From: Methylobacter sp. S3L5C
Lineage (GTDB): Bacteria; Pseudomonadota; Gammaproteobacteria; Methylococcales; Methylomonadaceae
Assembly: GCF_022788635.1 (NCBI RefSeq)
Contig: NZ_CP076024.1
Span: 1,302,001 to 1,366,000 of the forward strand
Length of the DNA stretch: 64,000 nucleotides
Direction: 5' to 3'
The position numbers and the translations under genes were made by a program. Of the stretch, positions 2,583-39,974 are shown piece after piece. The notes under the pieces were generated by a model, which made no database searches, was not told the DNA's origin, and saw only the letters and a list, made by a program, of their open reading frames with translations. Each line of letters opens with the position of its first letter. Within the stretch, counting starts at the first letter, position 1.

Positions 2583-4982
2583 TCAGTAAGGCCACTGCCA
2601 TTGGTCGTCTTCCGGTCTGTCTATACCATGTTCATAAGCGTAGCTTCGGCATTCAATTTGCTGGTCACGCAGCTTTTGTTTAACGTGCGCGCCGGATACC
2701 CGTAAAGTAGGAATACGATCAATAGCATCGATAGCCAGGCTGAAGCGGTCAGTTTCATTTTGAATAGCCAGTTCCAACGGCGTGTTGATGCTGCCTTTTT
2801 CCTTATAGCCACGCACATGCAGGTTCTTGTGGTTGTTACGGCGATAAGCGAGTCGATGAATTAACCAGGGATAGCCATGAAAATTAAAAATGACGGGTTT
2901 ATCCACGGTAAACAGGCTGTCGAAATCGCGATTTGAAAGGCCATGTGGATGCTCACTACTGGGCACTAATTTGTAAAGATCCACTACATTGATAAAGCGA
3001 ATTTTAATGGTTGGAAAGTTTTCGCGCAGTAATACGGTTGCGGCCAGAGCTTCTTTGGTGGGAATATCACCTGCGCTGGCCATAACCAGATCCGGTTCAC
3101 AACCATCGTCGTTACTCGCCCATTCCCAAATACTAATACCTTTGGTGCAGTGTTTAATCGCCGCATCCATATCCAGATATTGCAGATGCTTCTGCTTGTC
3201 GCAGACAATGACGTTAATGTAGTCAGTGGTTTGTAAGCAATGGTTGGCTACAGAAAGCAGACAGTTGACATCTGGCGGCAGGTAGATACGGGTTACTGAT
3301 GGACTTTTGTTAACGACCAGGTCGAGAAAGCCGGGATCCTGATGAGTAAAACCATTATGATCCTGACGCCAGACGGTAGAAGTAATCAGCAGGTTGAGTG
3401 ATGATACCGCTGCACGCCATGGCACAGCCTTGGACATGGCTAACCACTTGGCGTGTTGGTTAAACATCGAGTCAATGACATGCACAAACGCTTCGTAGGT
3501 AGAAAAAAAGCCGTGTCGACCCGTCAGTAAATAGCCTTCCAACCAACCTTCCAGCGTGTGTTCGGAGAGCATTTCCATAACCCGACCGTCTGGTGATAGT
3601 TGGCCATCGTCAGCATCTTCCGGCATAATATCCGCCATCCAGGTTTTTTTGCTGGCCTCATAAATGTCATCAAGCTTGTTGGAGCTATTTTCATCCGGGC
3701 CGAACACGCGGAAATTATTCATGTTGCCACTCATAATATCACGCAGAAATTTGCCCAATGGGCGGGTATTTTCTGCCGATATTTTACCTGGACTGGTGAG
3801 CGCAAGGGCATAATCCCGAAAATCCGGCATTCGTAAGGCTTTTCTTAACAGGCCACCGTTAGCATGCGGATTTGCGCTCATGCGGAGTGTACCTTTAGGC
3901 GCCAGTACTTTAAGTTCGGGGATTAATTTGCCCGTCGAATCAAATAATTCTTCAGGTTTATAACTACGCAGCCAGTCTTCCAGTTGCTTTAAATGTGCAG
4001 GATTTTCTTTCATTCCGGCAAGAGGTACCTGATGTGAGCGCCAAAAACCTTCGACCTTGTGCCCATCCACTTCCTTTGGACCCGTCCATCCTTTTGGGCT
4101 ACGCAAGATGATCATCGGCCAGCGTGGTCGGTTCGGGATGCCTGTGCGGCGTGCTTCATCCTGGATACGTTTGATTTCCAACACACACTCTTCAATAACG
4201 CTCGCCATCAGTTGGTGCATCGTTTCGGGATCACTGCCCTCCACGAAGTAAGGCGTATAGCCGTAGCCTTGAAACAGGCGCTCCAGTTCTTCATGGGAGA
4301 TGCGTGACAAGAGCGTCGGATTGTTTATTTTGTAACCGTTAAGATGCAATATCGGTAATACTGCGCCATCACGGATGGGATTAAGGAATTTATTGGAATG
4401 CCACGAAGTCGCCAATGGTCCGGTTTCCGATTCACCATCACCGACGACAACAGCTACCAGTAAATCGGGATTATCATAGGCAGCGCCGTAAGCATGAGAA
4501 ACACTGTAGCCCAGTTCGCCACCTTCATGAATCGAACCCGGTGTTTCCGGTGTACAGTGACTGCCTATACCGCCTGGAAAAGAAAATTCCTTGAAAAATT
4601 GCAATAAACCTTCTTCATCTTCACCTTTATTAGGGTAAATTTCTGCATAAGTACTTTCCAGATAAACGGGGGCCAACACGCCTGGAGCACCGTGGCCTGG
4701 TCCGGCCAGGAATATGGCATTAAGACCATACTTGTTAATGAGCCTGTTTAAATGTATGTAGGTAAAGCTTAGACCAGGACTTGAGCCCCAATGCCCTAAC
4801 AGCCGGTTTTTAATATGCTCAGGCTTTAGTGGTTCTTTCAATAGGGGATTATCCCGCAAATAAATCATACCGGCAGCCAGATAAGTACAGGCACGCCAGT
4901 AGGCGTTAATCCTGACTAGCTCATCCGGACTTAACGTATCAGCAACAGGGAATTGGATTATCGATTTATCAGCTGTAGTCAT
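2583..4982 (-). CDS. xfp: Phosphoketolase (xylulose-5-P / fructose-6-P)
   Basis: A thiamine-diphosphate enzyme that cleaves xylulose-5-phosphate (and often fructose-6-phosphate) with phosphate to acetyl-phosphate plus glyceraldehyde-3-phosphate (or erythrose-4-phosphate). The 799-residue length is normal for the family. Seen: HWGSSPG at residues 64-70, GPGHG at 94-98, the ThDP/Mg motif start GDGESETG at 181, and [10 protein letters not shown] near 141, all typical of XFP. In a RuMP-type methylotroph it would give a short route from pentose phosphates to acetyl units. It is the third gene downstream of the ATPase operon in the same direction; a 218-base gap from the SulP gene leaves room for a separate promoter. 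Confidence 0.96.
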
Positions 4983-5200
4983 ATAGTTATATCTCTTGAG
5001 GGTTAGATAAAATTAAAATTTAACAGACAAAATATAAGGGAAATACAGTCCAATTTTCCCTAAGTATTATGACATTTGTATTAATCTAAACGGGTTCTGT
5101 TTATTACACTACGCAGAGTGCACGATAGATGTTTACCGATTTTTGATTAACGATAACAGCGCTGCGGTTTATCTGTTTGCCTGCGCGGTAAGACTTTTGG

Positions 5201-16516: not shown

Positions 16517-17938
16517 ATGTACTTAATAGAACCCATTCTGCAGCAAATGTCCAGTGTAGTAAAACCGCAACGTAAGTTTATGTTCATCTTGCTAACAACC
16601 CTGACGTATCTGCCGGGACGGTTGAATTTCCGAAACCTTGGCCGTTATAGTGCTCTGAATGAAAAAACCTTTTCGAGATGGTTTCGTCGCTCGTTCGATT
16701 TTGTTACCTTCAATTTGCTGAGCTTGAAAGATTTAACGGATAAGGGTGAATGGGTAGCAGCAATTGATGCCAGCTTTTTACCCAAAAGCGGGCGCAATAG
16801 TTACGGCCTGGACTGGTTTTGGAACGGTTCACAGGGACAGGCTGAACGCGGACTGGAAATTTCACTGCTGGCCTTGGTGGATGTAACACACAACACAGCC
16901 TATACACTGTCGGCTTATCAAACGCCCGCTTTGCCCAAAGCACCGAAGGTACCTGAAGTCGTCAAAGAGTCGACCGTAAATAGCGAAACCAAGGTGGCTC
17001 AAGATGTCGAGAAGACACCGAAGAGCAAAGCCGAGAAAACGCCCAAAGAAACCCGGATCACCCGGGTAGATAGCTACCTTGATCATGTCAAACGCGAGAC
17101 CAAGGGACTGTTAGGGAAAATCCGTTATCTGGTCGCGGACAGCTTTTACGCGAAGACCAAGTTTATTAATGGCGTGGTGGAACATGGCCTGTACGTGGCC
17201 AGTAAGTTACGGCATGATGCCGATCTGCGCTGGCTATATATCGGTGAACAAAAAGCCAAAGGTCGACTGCGCAATTACGCAGGCAAGGGTTGTTTCGATG
17301 ATTTGTGACGCTTTGATCTGGCAGGAGAAATCGATGGCCAGCGCGTCTATACCGCTGTCGTCAATGCGCTGACGTTCAAACGTAATCTGCGGATTGTCTA
17401 TATCGTGCGGGAAGAAAAAGGCAAAACCTATACGGCATTATTACTCTGCACCGACATTGACTGTGCCGCCATGGACATTCTGCGCTATTACAAGGCAAGA
17501 TTTCAGATTGAATTCGTGTTCCGCGATGCCAAGCAATACACTGGACTATGCGATTGCCAAACGACTTCGGAAGCAAAGTTGGGCTTCCATTTCAATGCTT
17601 CACTGGCCGCACTGAATTTTCTGTGTCTGGAAGACCGGCAACAGGCCGTGGAAGGTGGAAGGTGGAAGGTGGAAGGTGGAAGGTGGAAGGTGGAAGGTGC
17701 AGGCCGCAACGTCATTTCCATCGCCAGTTGGAAGACTCGTAAATTCAATGCCCATTTATTGGAAAGGTTTTCTTGCCACTTAGGGATCGACTTTACTGCC
17801 ATAAAATCTAGCCAAGGCTTTGCAGCCCTCTGTAACTATCGCCGCGAAAACTGCCCGAAGTATTGTGATAATGTATCTCGTAACTTGCTCATGCCATTGA
17901 TAAAGTTGATTTTTTTAAACTTCTATTCTATCGTTTGA
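16517..17938 (+). pseudogene. IS4-family transposase with internal stop
   Basis: DDE transposase of an insertion sequence. The frame starting ATG 16517 reads AAIDASFLPKSG (first Asp), RYLVADSFYAK (second Asp), then hits TGA at 17306-17308. The same frame continues without shift to 17938 and holds YYKARFQIEFVFRDAK, a perfect Y-x2-R-x3-E-x6-K IS4 signature. The TGA could be a single-base change from CGA. Total length would be 473 codons. A Lys/Pro/Glu-rich insert lies near residues 135-185, and a 7-bp tandem repeat interrupts the part after the YREK motif. I could not find terminal inverted repeats or a target duplication, so element ends are undefined. Probably inactive. Confidence 0.85.
17648..17696 (+). 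repeat. Heptanucleotide tandem repeat (GTGGAAG)x7
   Basis: Seven exact head-to-tail copies of GTGGAAG, followed by a partial GTG. It lies in the 3' part of the IS4 transposase frame and encodes alternating VEGGRWK. Because the unit is 7 bases, gain or loss of one copy shifts the frame. Confidence 0.95.
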
Positions 17939-18198: not shown

Positions 18199-18705
18199 AT
18201 GTCGATTTTAAAATTAATCGTTGCTGCCGGATTACTGACTGCATCCATGGCCAGTATGGCTTCTACCAACTTGGGTACTTTGGATACTATCAATGAAGGA
18301 ACGGACTTTGGCGCCAGTAATTTAACGGGGGCTTTTTCTGAGGAATTTGTTTTTAACCTTGTCGGTGGTGATTACCTTTTTGGCCTGACAGCTACCAACA
18401 CTTTTAGTAAAACTAAAGTCGGCATCACTGATTTTACCGCGACATTGGATGGTAACGCTTTTAGTAATAGTTTGTACAATATTGCTTTAACTGCTAATAC
18501 TAAATTCAACTTTTTGTTTGGCGAAGTGTCAAGTTTGGCTTCCGGTGACCACAAACTGATAATCAGCGGTACTGGCAATAAAAGTAGTTTCGGTGGTTCT
18601 ATTGAAGTTAGTGCCATTAGTGCCGTACCTGTTCCAGCAGCAGTATGGTTAATGGGTTCAGCATTGATTGGCTTGGTATCATTCGGTAAACGTAAAAACG
18701 CTTAA
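18199..18705 (+). CDS. VPLPA-CTERM (PEP-CTERM) surface protein, 168 aa
   Basis: Small exported protein of unknown role. An N-terminal signal peptide (MSILKLIVAAGLLTASMASMAS) is followed by about 115 residues rich in Asn, Thr, Ser and Gly with no domain I know. It ends VPVPAAVWLMGSALIGLVSF then GKRKNA, the tripartite sorting tail (motif, helix, basic end) recognised by exosortases of the VPLPA-CTERM type. AGGA precedes ATG 18199 at normal spacing. It stands alone, has no riboswitch-like leader, and is closed by a strong terminator. Export, trimming and surface or matrix attachment are inferred from the tail. Confidence 0.88.
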   Translation: MSILKLIVAAGLLTASMASMASTNLGTLDTINEGTDFGASNLTGAFSEEFVFNLVGGDYLFGLTATNTFSKTKVGITDFTATLDGNAFSNSLYNIALTANTKFNFLFGEVSSLASGDHKLIISGTGNKSSFGGSIEVSAISAVPVPAAVWLMGSALIGLVSFGKRKNA

Positions 18706-21440: not shown

Positions 21441-22142
21441 TTAACTGATGTTTTTACGACGTTTTAAACCCATTACGCCGATTATGCCGGTCAAAAATAG
21501 CCAAATTGCACCGGGTAATGGTACAGCGGCAACATCGCCCGCGCGAACAGCTAATCCGTAAAACATTTCAGACATAGGATTGTGATACTGCTCGCCAATG
21601 CCAATATCGAATTTCCACGCGTAGTTTACATAACCCGTGTACTCAGTACCCGACCAATATGAAGCTCTATTGACGTTAGTGAACAAACTATAGTTGCCAT
21701 TATTGGTCGTTGCAATGTCTTTATAATCTTTACCGCCTAATTGATTGTAATACAAATCACCCATTTGGCTACTGGTAAGGTTACCCCCATAAGCGACTAC
21801 TGGTGTTCCAGGTAAGCTCCAATCAGTAAAGCCACCCAGCGTCAAGTTGTTAACCCAAGCTTGTGCACCCCACCAAGTCATTTTGCCTGTATTGGCATTA
21901 AAGTCATTGTTGGTGAGGGTATGGGTGCCGATACTCATGATATTATGTATTATTTGACTAACCAGATTGGTATTACCTGCCGCCTGGGTTTTAAACAAAT
22001 TGGCATCAGCTGCCCAGGTGATTTTGTTGACATCGTCATAGACCATACCGCCGGTACGTGCCACTAACGCTGCTTGGGCAGTCCCGGTTGCTGCTGTACT
22101 GACCAGCAAAGCCAATACCAAGCCGTTTTTTTTATGTTGCAT
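21441..22142 (-). CDS. DUF1566 VPLPA-CTERM protein, paralogue 1
   Basis: Exported 233-residue protein. A signal peptide (VLALLVSTAATGTAQA) leads into a DUF1566/Lcl-type domain with KITWAADANLFKT, WWGAQAWVNNLTLGGFTDW and FTNVNRASYWSGTEY, spanning about residues 30-205. The tail VPLPGAIWLFLTGIIGVMGL plus KRRKNIS is an exosortase sorting signal. AGG precedes ATG 22142 by 9 bases, and a GEMM-I riboswitch lies directly upstream. It is the most downstream of three leftward tandem paralogues. The DUF1566 fold is found in surface and adhesin-like proteins; the function here is unknown. Confidence 0.9.
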   Translation of the reverse strand: MQHKKNGLVLALLVSTAATGTAQAALVARTGGMVYDDVNKITWAADANLFKTQAAGNTNLVSQIIHNIMSIGTHTLTNNDFNANTGKMTWWGAQAWVNNLTLGGFTDWSLPGTPVVAYGGNLTSSQMGDLYYNQLGGKDYKDIATTNNGNYSLFTNVNRASYWSGTEYTGYVNYAWKFDIGIGEQYHNPMSEMFYGLAVRAGDVAAVPLPGAIWLFLTGIIGVMGLKRRKNIS

Positions 22143-22173
22143 ATTACTACCTACGAAAAATTATCATTACATT

Positions 22174-22248
22174 TAACGTAACCCGGCTGACCTGTAACGG
22201 CTCCGTGGCTTTCCGTCCTTATCTTGCAATAAGTTTGGCTTGTTCATC
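22174..22248 (-). ncRNA. GEMM-I (cyclic di-GMP-I) riboswitch 1
   Basis: Leftward leader RNA 32-34 bases before paralogue 1. Seen in order: GCCAAAC, CTTATT-GCAA-GATAAG (stem with GNRA tetraloop), GGACGGAAAGCCACGG, and AGCCGGGTTAC. These match the GEMM-I consensus (GCAAAC, GNRA stem, GGACGCAAAGCC, AGCCGGGTTGCC). The position corresponding to Vc2 G20 is G, the c-di-GMP rather than cGAMP type. The consensus G-C pair at positions 21/46 is C-G here, a compensating swap. With no terminator before ATG, control is probably of ribosome access. Confidence 0.82.
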
Positions 22249-22558
22249 CATAAATCATGCACACCTAAATAAGTGAGACACGAGCATACAATTTTATTAA
22301 GCAGGTAACTTTGCTTGACCATAAATACCTATAGTATTTATGTAATTTTTAAACTACAGGCTGAAGATAACAGATAAAAATAGCGAGTCAAGCTTTGAAT
22401 TGTAACAAAATGTAACAAGCAATCTAAATATACTAAAGCAATGAACCATGCTAAAGCGTGATTCGTGACCTGCAGTGTGTTTTGATAGTACTATTGGCTG
22501 GAATTAAGCTGGATAAACTGAACAACGTGGGAAGGTGTAATTTGTAGGGCGTTGTAAA

Positions 22559-22585
22559 TCGGGTTAGGCGCTAGCCGTAACCCGA
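22559..22585 (-). terminator. Hairpin downstream of paralogue 2
   Basis: TCGGGTTA-GGC pairs with GCC-(G)-TAACCCGA around a short loop, 16 bases past the paralogue 2 stop. No clear T run, so it may be a repeat-type hairpin rather than a classic terminator. Confidence 0.5.
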
Positions 22586-22600
22586 CAAAGATACATCGAA

Positions 22601-23344
22601 TTAAACGATGTTTTTACGACGCTTTAAACCGATTAAGCCTACCAAAGCACTACCGAATAACCAGACTGCGCCGGGTAATGGCACAGCGGCAACATCGCCA
22701 GATCGAACAGCCCATGCGAAGTTCTGGTTTAGCTTACCGATGTAGGACATAGTGCCATTTGTGGTAAGGAAGAGCCACGCTTCGCCTGGACTGCTCGCAT
22801 ATTCACTACCCAACCAGTACTCAGAGCTTTGGACGTTAGTGAATATATTATAACTGCCATTATTGGTCATACCTGTACCAGCACCTGCGCCATTACCGGC
22901 ACCTGCTCCACCACTCGGTCCATTGGCAAACAAAGCTACCATTTCGCTGACGGGCGGGTTTCCACCAGAAGCTCCCTCGGTAATGATGGGTAGTCTCCAG
23001 TCAGTAAAGCCACCCAGTGTTAAATTGTTAACCCAGGCTTGTGCGCCAAACCAGGTCATTTTACCGGTGGAGGTATTAAAGTCAGCGGCGGTCAGTGTGT
23101 GACTGCCGTTAACTGCCGACGCATCATTAATAACCCCATTGTTATTTACGATAATCTCATTAACCAGATTCGAATCAGCTGCCGCTTGGGTTTTAAACAG
23201 ATTGGCATCCGCAGCCCAAGTGATTTTATTGATTTTGTCATACACCATACCGCCGGTACGTGCCTCTAAGGAGGCTTGGGCTGTACTTGTTACTATGCTA
23301 CTGGCCAGTAAAACCAATGCCAGCCTTATTTTTTTATGTCGCAT
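22601..23344 (-). CDS. DUF1566 VPLPA-CTERM protein, paralogue 2
   Basis: Exported 247-residue protein with the same plan as its neighbours: signal peptide (LALVLLASSIVTSTAQA), DUF1566 domain with KITWAADANLFKTQAAADSN, WFGAQAWVNNLTLGGFTDWR and FTNVQSSEYWLGSEY, and tail VPLPGAVWLFGSALVGLIGL-KRRKNIV. It differs by a Gly/Ala-rich insert (GPSGGAGAGNGAGAGTG) about two thirds along. The frame opens at TTG 23365, but ATG 23344 (MRHKK) has AGGT eight bases upstream, as in the other two, so I start there. A riboswitch precedes it. Confidence 0.9.
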   Translation of the reverse strand: MRHKKIRLALVLLASSIVTSTAQASLEARTGGMVYDKINKITWAADANLFKTQAAADSNLVNEIIVNNNGVINDASAVNGSHTLTAADFNTSTGKMTWFGAQAWVNNLTLGGFTDWRLPIITEGASGGNPPVSEMVALFANGPSGGAGAGNGAGAGTGMTNNGSYNIFTNVQSSEYWLGSEYASSPGEAWLFLTTNGTMSYIGKLNQNFAWAVRSGDVAAVPLPGAVWLFGSALVGLIGLKRRKNIV

Positions 23345-23375
23345 GTTGTTACCTAAAAAAAACAACTATTTAATT

Positions 23376-23451
23376 TAACGCAACCCGGCTGGCCTCTAAA
23401 GGCTTCGTGGCTTTCCGTCCTTATCTTGCAATAAGTTTGGCTTTTTTATCC
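23376..23451 (-). ncRNA. GEMM-I (cyclic di-GMP-I) riboswitch 2
   Basis: Same architecture as copy 1: GCCAAAC, CTTATT-GCAA-GATAAG, GGACGGAAAGCCACG, AGCCGGGTTGCG. The 3' core is closest of the three to consensus (GGGTTGC). It ends about 32 bases before ATG 23344. Upstream, a short hairpin CACTT-ATCC-AAGTG is conserved in all three leaders (23452-23500), suggesting that the transcript leader extends further 5'. Confidence 0.83.
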
Positions 23452-23619
23452 ATAAATCATGCGCACTTGGATAAGTGAGACACGAGCGTGCAATTTCATT
23501 AAGCAAGCATTGGCATGTTTACAAATCACAAACAAATAATAATCGATAAAAATATAATGTCCAGTGCTAAATTGTGACAAAATTATGAAAGAATTAAATA
23601 ATTATTTTAAATACACTAA

Positions 23620-23770
23620 AGCCATAAACTATACTGAGATATGAAATGCATCGCTCATGACTGGCAGGGTATTTTGGTGACGCTATTGAGTGGGGTTAAT
23701 CAGGCAGGATGCGGGATAAAAAAATTGCGCCCATTACCTCTTACATCAGCGGTAATGCGGTTTGTCAACA
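23620..23770 (-). repeat. Duplicated block upstream of riboswitch leaders (copy A)
   Basis: This block shares with 24850-24995 the strings TATTTTGGTGACGCTATT, GGGGTTA..AGGCAG.ATGCGGG and TTACCTCTT..ATCAGCGGTAATGCGGTTT. The left gap before paralogue 1 (about 22450-22500) holds a more degenerate version. It shows that the tandem duplication unit extends well beyond gene plus riboswitch. A 77-codon rightward frame in it has no recognisable product. Confidence 0.7.
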
Positions 23771-23884
23771 CGGTTGGAGTAATATGTAGGGCGTTAATAG
23801 CAAAGCGTCTTGCGCGAATGTTGGGCTTTGATCTTTTAGCGCATCAGGCTATCGCTAAGACCCACTACTTTTAATCTATCTTCG

Positions 23885-23920
23885 GCTCTGGCTCCCAAGC
23901 TGGAGCTTGGGAGCCAGAGC
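23885..23920. repeat. 17-bp-arm palindrome after paralogue 3
   Basis: GCTCTGGCTCCCAAGCT and its exact complement are separated by GG, followed by a second partial CTTGGGAGCCAAGGAGCC. It lies 37 bases beyond the paralogue 3 stop. It could serve as a terminator or be a genome-wide palindromic repeat (REP-like); no T run follows. Confidence 0.7.
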
Positions 23921-23957
23921 ACTTGGGAGCCAAGGAGCCAGTCAGTCAAGCACCGAA

Positions 23958-24557
23958 TTAAGCAGTGTTTTTACGACGATTTAAGCCCATTACACCAATC
24001 ATGCCAGTCAAGAATAGCCAGACCGCACCGGGTAATGGCACAGTGGCAACATCGCCCGAGCGAACAGCCCATGCGTAGAGATCCTTATTATACTTTTCGT
24101 CGCTCTGCTTGCCACCCTTGATATCGAAGGCCCTCGTTTTATCTTTACCGGCATCCTCGCTCGACCAGTACTTGTCGTTCTTGACGTTAGTGAATAAATC
24201 ATACTTGCTATCATCCTTATCGCCGCTATGATCCTTATCACCATTACCCCTTCCTATCTTACTCAAAACAGGGCCTAGCTGATTGGTAAATTGGTTAATG
24301 GTAGGCAGTACCCAATCCGTGTAACCGGCATAATCCAGACCGTTGGCCCAGGCTACAGCTGTTGACCACTCCATTTTACCATTGCGATCGTAGCCACTGG
24401 TTTTTGCCAGATTGGCATCGGCTACCCAAGTTATATTGTTGACATCGTCATAAACCAAATCCGTACCACGAGCAAAAAGCGATGCATGGGCAGTACCCGT
24501 TGTTGCTACGACGCCAATAATCAAGGCCAGTGCCAAACGTGTTTTTTTATGTTGCAT
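23958..24557 (-). CDS. DUF1566 VPLPA-CTERM protein, paralogue 3
   Basis: Exported 199-residue protein, the shortest of the three. Signal peptide (ALALIIGVVATTGTAHA), then NITWVADANLAKTSGYDRNG, WANGLDYAGYTDWVLPT and a shortened DUF1566 core with an Asp/Lys-rich stretch (GNGDKDHSGDKDDSKYDL) where the others are Gly/Asn-rich. Tail VPLPGAVWLFLTGMIGVMGL-NRRKNTA. AGGT precedes ATG 24557 as in its paralogues. It is first in the leftward direction, but each gene has its own leader, so they are probably separate transcripts. Confidence 0.9.
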   Translation of the reverse strand: MQHKKTRLALALIIGVVATTGTAHASLFARGTDLVYDDVNNITWVADANLAKTSGYDRNGKMEWSTAVAWANGLDYAGYTDWVLPTINQFTNQLGPVLSKIGRGNGDKDHSGDKDDSKYDLFTNVKNDKYWSSEDAGKDKTRAFDIKGGKQSDEKYNKDLYAWAVRSGDVATVPLPGAVWLFLTGMIGVMGLNRRKNTA

Positions 24558-24589
24558 ATTATTACCTATAGAAAATCATCATTAAATGT

Positions 24590-24662
24590 AATGCAGCCTG
24601 ACTGGCCATTAAGGCTCCGTGGCTTTCCGTCTTTATCTTGCAATAAGTTTTGCTTTTTTATC
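24590..24662 (-). ncRNA. GEMM-I riboswitch 3, diverged
   Basis: The same elements are present: GCAAAAC, CTTATT-GCAA-GATAAA, GACGGAAAGCCACGG. The 3' core, however, reads AGTCAGGCTGC instead of AGCCGGGTTGC, and the base after G20-C21 is A instead of C. It may bind more weakly, prefer another ligand, or be decaying. It sits about 33 bases before ATG 24557. Confidence 0.7.
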
Positions 24663-25029
24663 CGTAAATCATGCGCACTTAACTAAGTGGGACACGAGCA
24701 TACAATTTTTTTAAGCAGGGAAGCTGACCTGATTATAAGTACTTAAATTTTTTGCTGTTTCAAAACCGTAAATATAGAATAACAGATAAAAATAGTGCGT
24801 CCAGCTTTGAATTGTAACCAAATGTAACAAACATTTTTACATATACTTAAAGTGGTGGGCATGCTGTAAAGAATGAAGCGCGTCGTTGGTGACTGGCGGG
24901 TATTTTGGTGACGCTATTAAGCGGGGTTAGTAAGGCAGAATGCGGGGTAACGGGATTACGCCTGTTACCTCTTGTGTATCAGCGGTAATGCGGTTTTTCG
25001 GTTACTGTATCTTATGCAGAAACAGTGTA
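24663..25029 (-). other. Leader upstream part and duplicated block (copy B)
   Basis: Contains the conserved CACTT-AGTT-AAGTG mini-hairpin and GTGTCCCACTTA string of the three leaders, then an A/T-rich stretch. From about 24850 it holds copy B of the duplicated block described at 23620-23770. The promoter for paralogue 3 should lie here; no confident -35/-10 was identified. No gene seen. Confidence 0.5.
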
Positions 25030-39113: not shown

Positions 39114-39974
39114 TCAATTACAAAACAATCTATCACAGACTTGTAGCGCTACTTTAGGCGAAAAGGATGACTCTATCGCAATTAGCATGGCGATACGCAC
39201 AGTATTTGCTAACCAAATAATAATTATCCCGAAAGGAAAAAGCCAGAAGGCTTGCGGAAAACGTAGCTCCTTTTTGAACAGCCAAAGATAGATCTCGAGA
39301 AATATGGTAATCAGGGAAATACCTTCCAAACTCGAATAAGAGGAAAATATTTCAACCTGAAAAGAGGCTGTACCCAATAAGAAAATTTCCGGTTGAGAGA
39401 CAAGTTCCGAATAAAACCAGCCGAGCAGTAAATAAACAAGCTGCATTGTGGGTTTAGCCAGATTGTTCCAGAATTCTTCTTGATCGAGGGGGTTTTCTTG
39501 TCGACCGAGCATTCCTAACAGCATCCAGGCGCAAATTCCCAGCACACAACCCATGAGTAATGCTATATACTCCTGGCGAATCAGTCCTAACCAAAAATGA
39601 CCTGGAACCAATGCAAGCAACCATAGCATCAATGTTACTCTGGTCAGCGTAAACCAACCTGCAAACCAAGAGGCCGAGAGATGCTCAGGGTTGGTGGGGA
39701 TGCCGAAAATGAGTTCAGTGACAACCGCGAATGCAGCAAAAGCGAGGAGGTGACATATCAGCCAATACATCCAGCGATGTTCACATGACTGCTCCTGTAA
39801 ATCACTTAGAATCCCCTTAATCCGAGGGCTGAGAATAAGTAAAAAAGCGCTAATAATCCACAGGCCTGCCGGCCAAATCTCTTTCGAAAAATTAAATATC
39901 CACTTGGACCAATTGATATTATTCACCAAAAGAGGTGAGAGGAGTTGGGGTGCTTCATGCCGTGTGGTTATCAC
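39114..39974 (-). pseudogene. Truncated, catalytically dead exosortase (XrtE-like)
   Basis: A 286-residue multi-pass membrane protein (GTG start 39974) related to exosortases, the membrane peptidases that process PEP-CTERM-type tails. YSSLEGISLITIFLEIYLWL followed by FKKELRFPQAFWLFPFG and WLANTVRIAM is the region that in active enzymes reads C-S-G-x-E-G then NxxRI. Here the catalytic Cys codon is Tyr (TAT) and the Gly is Ser. The frame stops right after SPKVALQ, before the conserved His segment and any C-terminal CPBP-protease part found in the XrtE/VPEID type. The Arg is kept. It borders IS remnants, which likely caused the truncation. Assignment to XrtE is from memory. Confidence 0.72.

Follow-up and report, generated by a model that had tools for sequence, protein, structure and literature searches.

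Within a 64,000-nucleotide (nt) stretch of the Methylobacter sp. S3L5C genome (contig NZ_CP076024.1, positions 1,302,001 to 1,366,000; hereafter the window, with coordinates counted from its first letter), three tandem genes for Lcl_C-domain proteins with exosortase-type C-terminal tails are each headed by a class-I cyclic di-GMP (c-di-GMP) riboswitch aptamer of the GEMM-I type, and across the genome as a whole such aptamers mostly lead tail-bearing surface proteins. We consider it probable that the array represents three separate cassettes, each combining its own promoter, a class-I c-di-GMP riboswitch operating as a translational ON switch, and a predicted-exported Lcl_C protein with an exosortase-type tail.

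A cmscan search of the entire window returned exactly three matches to Rfam family RF01051 over the gathering score of 35 bits, all on the minus strand: copy 1 at 22174-22249 (53.6 bits, E 1.1e-7), copy 2 at 23376-23451 (54.0 bits, E 9e-8) and copy 3 at 24589-24663 (37.6 bits, E 9.1e-4); the only other Rfam matches were two tRNAs. A preliminary description of this DNA had proposed three GEMM-I riboswitches, each heading one of three tandem surface-protein genes, and had staked the proposal on an RF01051 search; with every copy over the cut-off, the observation of three riboswitch-led tandem genes is confirmed. The leader motifs it had described as shared are present: GCNAAAC occurs throughout (GCCAAAC in copies 1 and 2, GCAAAAC in copy 3), and the 3' core of copy 1 reads GGGTTAC and does not end in GC. 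The distance from aptamer to gene, given there as about 33 bases, is 31 nt from the aptamer end to the ATG in each copy. All three copies possess the GNRA-capped P1b stem, with a GCAA loop. The 11-nt tetraloop receptor in the second arm is an optional feature of c-di-GMP-I riboswitches; it was not found in the RF01051 alignments of the three copies, in all of which the second arm is shortened (gaps in copy 2, eight letters for 19 model positions in copy 1, mostly gaps in copy 3).

The three genes lie on the same strand as the aptamers and encode a 233-residue protein with a VPLPGAIW tail (protein 1, 21441-22142), a protein of 247 residues from its ATG with a VPLPGAVW tail (protein 2, 22601-23344; its frame also extends to an upstream TTG, and it was scored in the family searches without the first methionine) and a 199-residue protein, again with VPLPGAVW (protein 3, 23958-24557). 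All pass the Pfam cut-off of 34.9 bits for Lcl_C (PF07603), at 36.6, 47.9 and 48.6 bits for proteins 1 to 3, respectively. Read off the translations, each carries an N-terminal export signal and a C-terminal arrangement of a P-x-P motif, a hydrophobic stretch and a basic end, which by eye takes the form VPLPGA[IV]WLF, a hydrophobic run and RRK. The tail pattern is positive in four of the 100 open reading frames (ORFs) of at least 70 codons in the window, three of which are these proteins. A search of solved structures with protein 3, the only one tried, gave no match. Near the array, a fourth tail-bearing protein is encoded on the plus strand at 18199-18705, scoring 49.9 against the cut-off of 50 for the FxDxF family and having no GEMM-I leader.

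The proteins had been described as paralogous exported proteins with VPLPA-CTERM tails, a description that stands as to the visible VPLPG-type tail and falls short as to family scores: the three tails reach 17.9, 16.0 and 17.1 bits for TIGR03370 (cut-off 25.35) and 15.4, 18.8 and 15.0 bits for PF07589 (cut-off 20.7). The term VPLPA-CTERM-like is therefore apt, strict family membership being unmet by score. The tail architecture is that of the VPLPA-CTERM/exosortase XrtD system (TIGR03370/TIGR04152), and a VPLPA-specific exosortase, which we take to be XrtD, is encoded in the genome (590.9 bits for TIGR04152, whose cut-off is 400); the window tails differ from that system in reading VPLPG and in scoring under TIGR03370.

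The pairing of aptamers with tail genes extends through the genome. The genome holds 15 GEMM-I aptamers, all over the cut-off, and 12 of them head a tail-bearing protein: 11 precede a complete ORF recognised by the tail pattern, and the ORF behind the twelfth (L002) runs off the examined stretch, its tail being visible and matched by profile at 1950705-1950776. When the genome was searched with a profile made from 22 tails, 36 tails were matched at E up to 0.1, and 12 of these stand behind aptamers; since tails from behind aptamers, the genome's own and those of relatives, were included in it, this profile may favour that kind of tail. TIGR03370 itself gives 20 genomic matches at E up to 0.01, and 11 of these pass its cut-off. 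The hypergeometric probability of 12 in 15 aptamers against 36 tails lies between 1e-24 and 8e-23 for gene numbers assumed, not counted, to be 3500-5000. With 4000 genes assumed, collapsing the leaders at 80% aptamer identity leaves nine groups, six of them consisting wholly of tail genes (p 3e-11), and collapsing at 70% leaves six groups, three wholly of tail genes (p 1e-5) and five containing one or more; a threshold of 65% merges every leader into a single group and leaves nothing to test. The three exceptions are an aptamer heading a protein with a TPS domain of the filamentous-haemagglutinin type (L012), an orphan aptamer (L005, positions 1501-1579 of its stretch; G000:C1:1154419-1154497) with an opposite-strand ORF within 65 nt, presumably an insertion sequence (IS) transposase, and no gene of its own, and an aptamer (L013) after which no ORF of at least 70 codons starts within 400 nt, the next one starting at +434. 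The first of these belongs to a second type of target for GEMM-I aptamers in the family, large proteins whose starts resemble one another (L012, L058, L078, L082, L085, L152 and L157), within which only L012 was scanned for domains.

Among relatives, RF01051 has matches at E up to 0.001 in 11 genomes out of the 35 considered for the genus, 69 out of 121 for the family and 65 out of 370 for the class, each set including the genome of the window. Downstream genes were read for 170 aptamers, i.e., 173 minus exact duplicates, with a gene called open where its ORF runs off the stretch. In the window's own genome the 15 aptamers divide into 11 with a tail gene, two open and two with none; the 32 aptamers of other genus members into 16 with a tail, seven without, eight open and one with no gene; the 94 of other family members into 43, 14, 32 and five; and the 29 from outside the family into 0, 15, 12 and two. 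This sample is non-random, combining the best-scoring loci of each search with 54 hand-picked stretches, 14 of them chosen mostly for closely spaced matches; two places are counted twice, both as open (L083/L128 and L085/L126), and two aptamers of L160 precede one gene. Beyond the genus itself, tail leaders were seen in 10 further genera of the family. Among a further 20 hand-chosen matches outside the family (many low-scoring; the 500-base L200 left out), one passes the tail pattern (L203), and by eye L184 (VPEAQ) and L197 (VPLPP) also carry tails of this kind, which means that the pattern misses some. The link between aptamer and tail is thus strongest in this family and is not exclusive to it. 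In addition, many of the top-scoring family aptamers (about 70-80 bits) precede not ORFs whose tail can be seen but long ORFs with similar starts that run off the stretch (L061, L065, L067-L070, L072, L074 and L077).

The array appears to evolve cassette by cassette. In a genome (G002) that we take to belong to Methylobacter psychrophilus, the species whose strain Z-0021 carries the same array, the corresponding position, flanked by a transketolase-like gene and rnfB, holds five aptamers, each heading a tail gene; identity is 89-96% over the long flanks and mostly 70-88% within the array. Further clusters of GEMM-I aptamers with tail genes were seen at G057:C100, G035:C65, G071:C367, G082:C1 (at about 410 kb) and on a second contig of M. 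psychrophilus (G002:C66). The cassettes probably arose by tandem duplication. In plasmid records, the neighbouring rsxB gene was the only match.

The proposed sensing of c-di-GMP gains support from the aptamer bases presumed to contact the ligand, which we take to be G20, A47 and C92 in Vc2 numbering and which read G, A and C in all three window copies. At a fixed offset, 13 of the 15 aptamers of the genome read GAC, L012 reading CAT; for aptamers placed by RF03167 coordinates the offset is shifted by one base, which accounts for most rows reading CAC, CAA or CAG. One further own-genome aptamer (L006, G000:C1:4683054-4683128) has U at C92, yet scores over the cut-off and heads a tail protein. 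The 27 GGDEF matches in the genome make it very likely that the organism produces c-di-GMP. It would be highly improbable for these aptamers to sense another cyclic dinucleotide, such as 3',3'-cyclic GMP-AMP (3',3'-cGAMP) in the manner of the GEMM-Ib riboswitches of Geobacter, or to behave like the c-di-GMP-I-GGC variant (RF03167), whose ligand preference is undefined. What speaks for such a shift is that RF03167 outranks RF01051 at the same three places once matches below cut-off are admitted, and that A20 occurs in aptamers of some relatives (L056, L059 and L159). cGAMP-type aptamers carry A20, whereas the three copies have G at that position, and a GEMM-Ib identity was rejected for them accordingly. 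The variant was likewise rejected: its consensus has G at the A47 position, where the window copies carry A, and they score 50.0, 48.3 and 32.7 bits against its cut-off of 59, which two other aptamers of the genome do pass. A short second arm is modelled in RF03167 as it is found in the window. Retention of G20 and A47 argues for c-di-GMP over cGAMP and against the variant. As for the relatives, L059 is the M. psychrophilus counterpart of L002, which has G at position 20, and the ligand of these three A20 aptamers may have shifted towards cGAMP.

A promoter-like site lies on the minus strand 84-114 nt upstream of each aptamer, within sequence that the paralogous leaders have conserved: TTGACT-16-TATCTT preceded by TG for copy 1 (22364-22391; 114 nt), TGGACA-16-TATTAT for copy 2 (23536-23563; 84 nt) and a weak TGGACG-16-TATTCT for copy 3 (24776-24803; 112 nt), the last absent from a stricter scan. 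All are consensus matches, and single matches prove little, the region containing 20 against 10.2 (standard deviation, sd, 3.2) in shuffles. A small hairpin stands just 5' of each aptamer (minus strand; CACTT/AGGTG at 22262-22275, CACTT/AAGTG at 23464-23477 and CACTT/AAGTG at 24676-24689). It is present in most of 16 paralogous leaders, but with pairing in 84% of cells (a level reached by 24 of 500 shuffles) and a covariation score matched in 40 of 500, the pair counts are marginal and the hairpin was not retained as a conserved part. Of 70 leaders, 53 have stems of at least five pairs upstream, the figure per shuffle being 35.

Downstream, a platform based on transcription termination was rejected: none of eight terminator-like sites (4.6, sd 2.5, in shuffles) falls between an aptamer and its start codon, one five-pair match (24608-24594) lying inside aptamer 3 and the others elsewhere, and the U-run in the copy 2 spacer has no GC-rich stem before it. 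The 31-nt spacers all lie on the minus strand. In copy 1 (22143-22173) the spacer holds a ribosome-binding site, and its 3' part can pair with the aptamer 3' edge including C92; in copy 2 (23345-23375) ribosome-binding site and ATG can join a helix with that edge; and in copy 3 (24558-24588) the ATG region can do so. Folded alone, the 3' tails reach -5.7, -9.7 and -4.4 kcal/mol in copies 1 to 3, respectively, and in each C92 is taken into a helix covering part of the ribosome-binding site or the ATG.

For 77 leaders from 30 genomes (70 with tail genes, seven open), the complementarity of each leader's segments to its own start region was compared with that to the start regions of other leaders, using 13 segments and three targets, and the aptamer 3' edge against the ribosome-binding region stood out (z -6.6 for window -10..+6, with neighbours at -5.2 and -2.8; the next best negative values did not go beyond -2.6, and several belonged to the control target). 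In a stricter set of 54 leaders from 26 genomes, sharing less than 80% identity and with overlaps excluded, own pairs averaged -4.99 kcal/mol against -3.82 in permutations (z -5.1; 0 of 4000 permutations as low); targets from -10 onward gave no signal there, those from -6 onward yielding z from -1.5 to +1.4. In 44 short-spacer leaders, moreover, the mean probability that C92 pairs downstream is 0.66, compared with 0.46 after dinucleotide shuffling (p 4e-4), and that of the ribosome-binding site pairing with the 3' edge is 0.35 against 0.23 (p 0.0015). The complementarity across leaders points to translational control, and the recruitment of C92 beyond the shuffled expectation indicates that the helix competes with ligand binding.

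In the mechanism we favour, each cassette would be transcribed from its own promoter; without c-di-GMP, the aptamer 3' edge including C92 would pair with the ribosome-binding site or start codon and block translation, and c-di-GMP would pull the 3' strand into the aptamer and turn translation on, after which the proteins would pass through Sec and be handled by an XrtD-type exosortase. Judging from the leader sequences, translational control by competition between ligand binding and sequestration, with c-di-GMP switching expression on, is most likely; the ON direction is inferred, and Vc1 of Vibrio cholerae, which also precedes a surface adhesin gene, is activated by c-di-GMP. Several results weigh against this account, in addition to the tail scores given above. 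The minimum-energy fold of the whole leader contains the sequestering helix in copy 2 but lacks it in copies 1 and 3; just 61% of leaders have an own complementarity stronger than the average of the other pairings, which means that a subset drives the signal; and the helix between the P1 5' and 3' strands, tried as switching partner, was rejected, no own-pair signal appearing in ten windows (z -0.7 to +2.3). The modelled gain in ribosome-binding-site accessibility on 'binding' was no greater in true leaders (+0.045) than in chimeras (+0.038, sd 0.014), with changes above 0.1 running upwards in 14 of 44 leaders and downwards in five. Furthermore, the aptamer of copy 3 is damaged, and a 46%-identical homologue from an uncultured Methylococcaceae (L205, 197-931) has no GEMM-I match in the 196 nt examined upstream.

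Alternatively, the same riboswitches could act with the opposite sign, c-di-GMP repressing the three genes, for example through a hairpin of 3' edge and ribosome-binding site that stacks on the bound aptamer. Such an arrangement seems rather unlikely, though it is the likeliest of the alternatives: the accessibility modelling favours neither sign, and the strongest complementarity in the 54-leader test (segment B-8 to B+6) is located for the most part immediately 3' of C92 and beyond the bulk of the aptamer. Against it stand the downstream pairing of C92, by which the helix competes with ligand binding, and the activating character of Vc1 before its adhesin gene as given in the accessible part of PMC4744006. 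The leaders could, on the other hand, be relics of a tandem duplication that copied leader and gene together, with aptamers that no longer regulate, which we regard as improbable. Some features speak for decay: copy 3, at 37.6 bits, has five non-standard pairs in the printed RF01051 alignment and a C-A mismatch in P1b, while its counterpart at the syntenic place in M. psychrophilus scores 58.3 bits; elsewhere in the genome, L005 is followed by no gene of its own and L006 departs at C92. Yet copies 1 and 2 keep G20, A47 and C92 and show only one and two non-standard pairs, respectively, the count for copy 1 resting on the printed portion of a partly elided alignment; the three aptamers are better conserved (83-91% DNA identity) than the coding sequences (58-67%; proteins 41-56%); and aptamer-led tail genes extend through the 10 other genera mentioned above. 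The translational ON switch is retained as the preferred reading, with the reservation that the copy 3 aptamer has probably been weakened in this lineage and may respond weakly or not at all, which makes equal control of all three genes doubtful.

PEP-CTERM proteins form a numerous group, most of which have no known function. If c-di-GMP directly controls 12 of the 36 tail-bearing proteins found in this genome, these would belong to cells that are attached to surfaces or aggregated. Since the pairing of aptamer and tail gene recurs through the genome and in relatives, much of the coat of this methane-eating bacterium is probably set by a single biofilm signal. A broader reading, to which we give slightly less than an even chance, is that much of the exosortase-sorted surface proteome of this methanotroph family constitutes a direct c-di-GMP riboswitch regulon: each gene would carry its own aptamer, whose 3' edge would form a translational ON platform with the ribosome-binding site of that gene, cassettes would duplicate, diverge and decay as units, and many surface proteins could be tuned separately to one messenger. 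The array, with three copies here, five in the relative and one weakened, offers a natural series on riboswitch duplication and decay.

The finding extends an arrangement already published for Methylophaga and represents a new, larger example, not a new kind. GbpA, the V. cholerae adhesin behind Vc1, is not known to be an exosortase substrate, whereas the window proteins are predicted to be. According to the accessible part of a 2025 paper, four of the seven c-di-GMP riboswitches of Methylophaga nitratireducenticrescens GP59 (Ribo4-7) each flank a VPLPA/PEP-CTERM gene, the same pairing as in the genome studied here, and three of these four lie about 1 kb apart; the authors tie Ribo4-7 to exopolysaccharide and to the choice between planktonic and biofilm growth, with transcripts higher in biofilm for three of them and Ribo5 higher in planktonic anoxic cultures (PMC12530212). 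Judged against that part of the paper, the sequences themselves not being compared, the present genome differs in the 12 of 15 aptamers involved, the duplicating Lcl_C array of three or five copies and the proposed expression platform. A literature search largely without subscription journals found only this paper, seen in part, on c-di-GMP riboswitches before PEP-CTERM genes. Vc1 precedes gbpA and is positively regulated by c-di-GMP, likewise a class-I riboswitch before a secreted adhesin gene, though with a different leader (PMC4744006, accessible part). For Geobacter sulfurreducens, the accessible text of PMC10599522 names the PEP-motif genes GSU1943 and GSU1944 and, separately and without connecting them, the GEMM-I-led gsu1945 and gsu1948; the neighbouring locus numbers hint that a similar link between riboswitch and PEP-CTERM genes may exist at GSU1943-GSU1948.

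Elsewhere in the window, the minus strand at 39114-39974 encodes an exosortase E-like fragment (TIGR04162, 65 bits against a cut-off of 150; general exosortase TIGR04178, 32.7 against 23) that covers positions 117-276 of the 516-position model and looks truncated; a transposase-like ORF, presumably of an IS-type family, lies about 600 bases from it. On the plus strand, 16517-17308 and 17405-17938 correspond to successive parts of IS701/IS4-type transposases and represent a split transposase.

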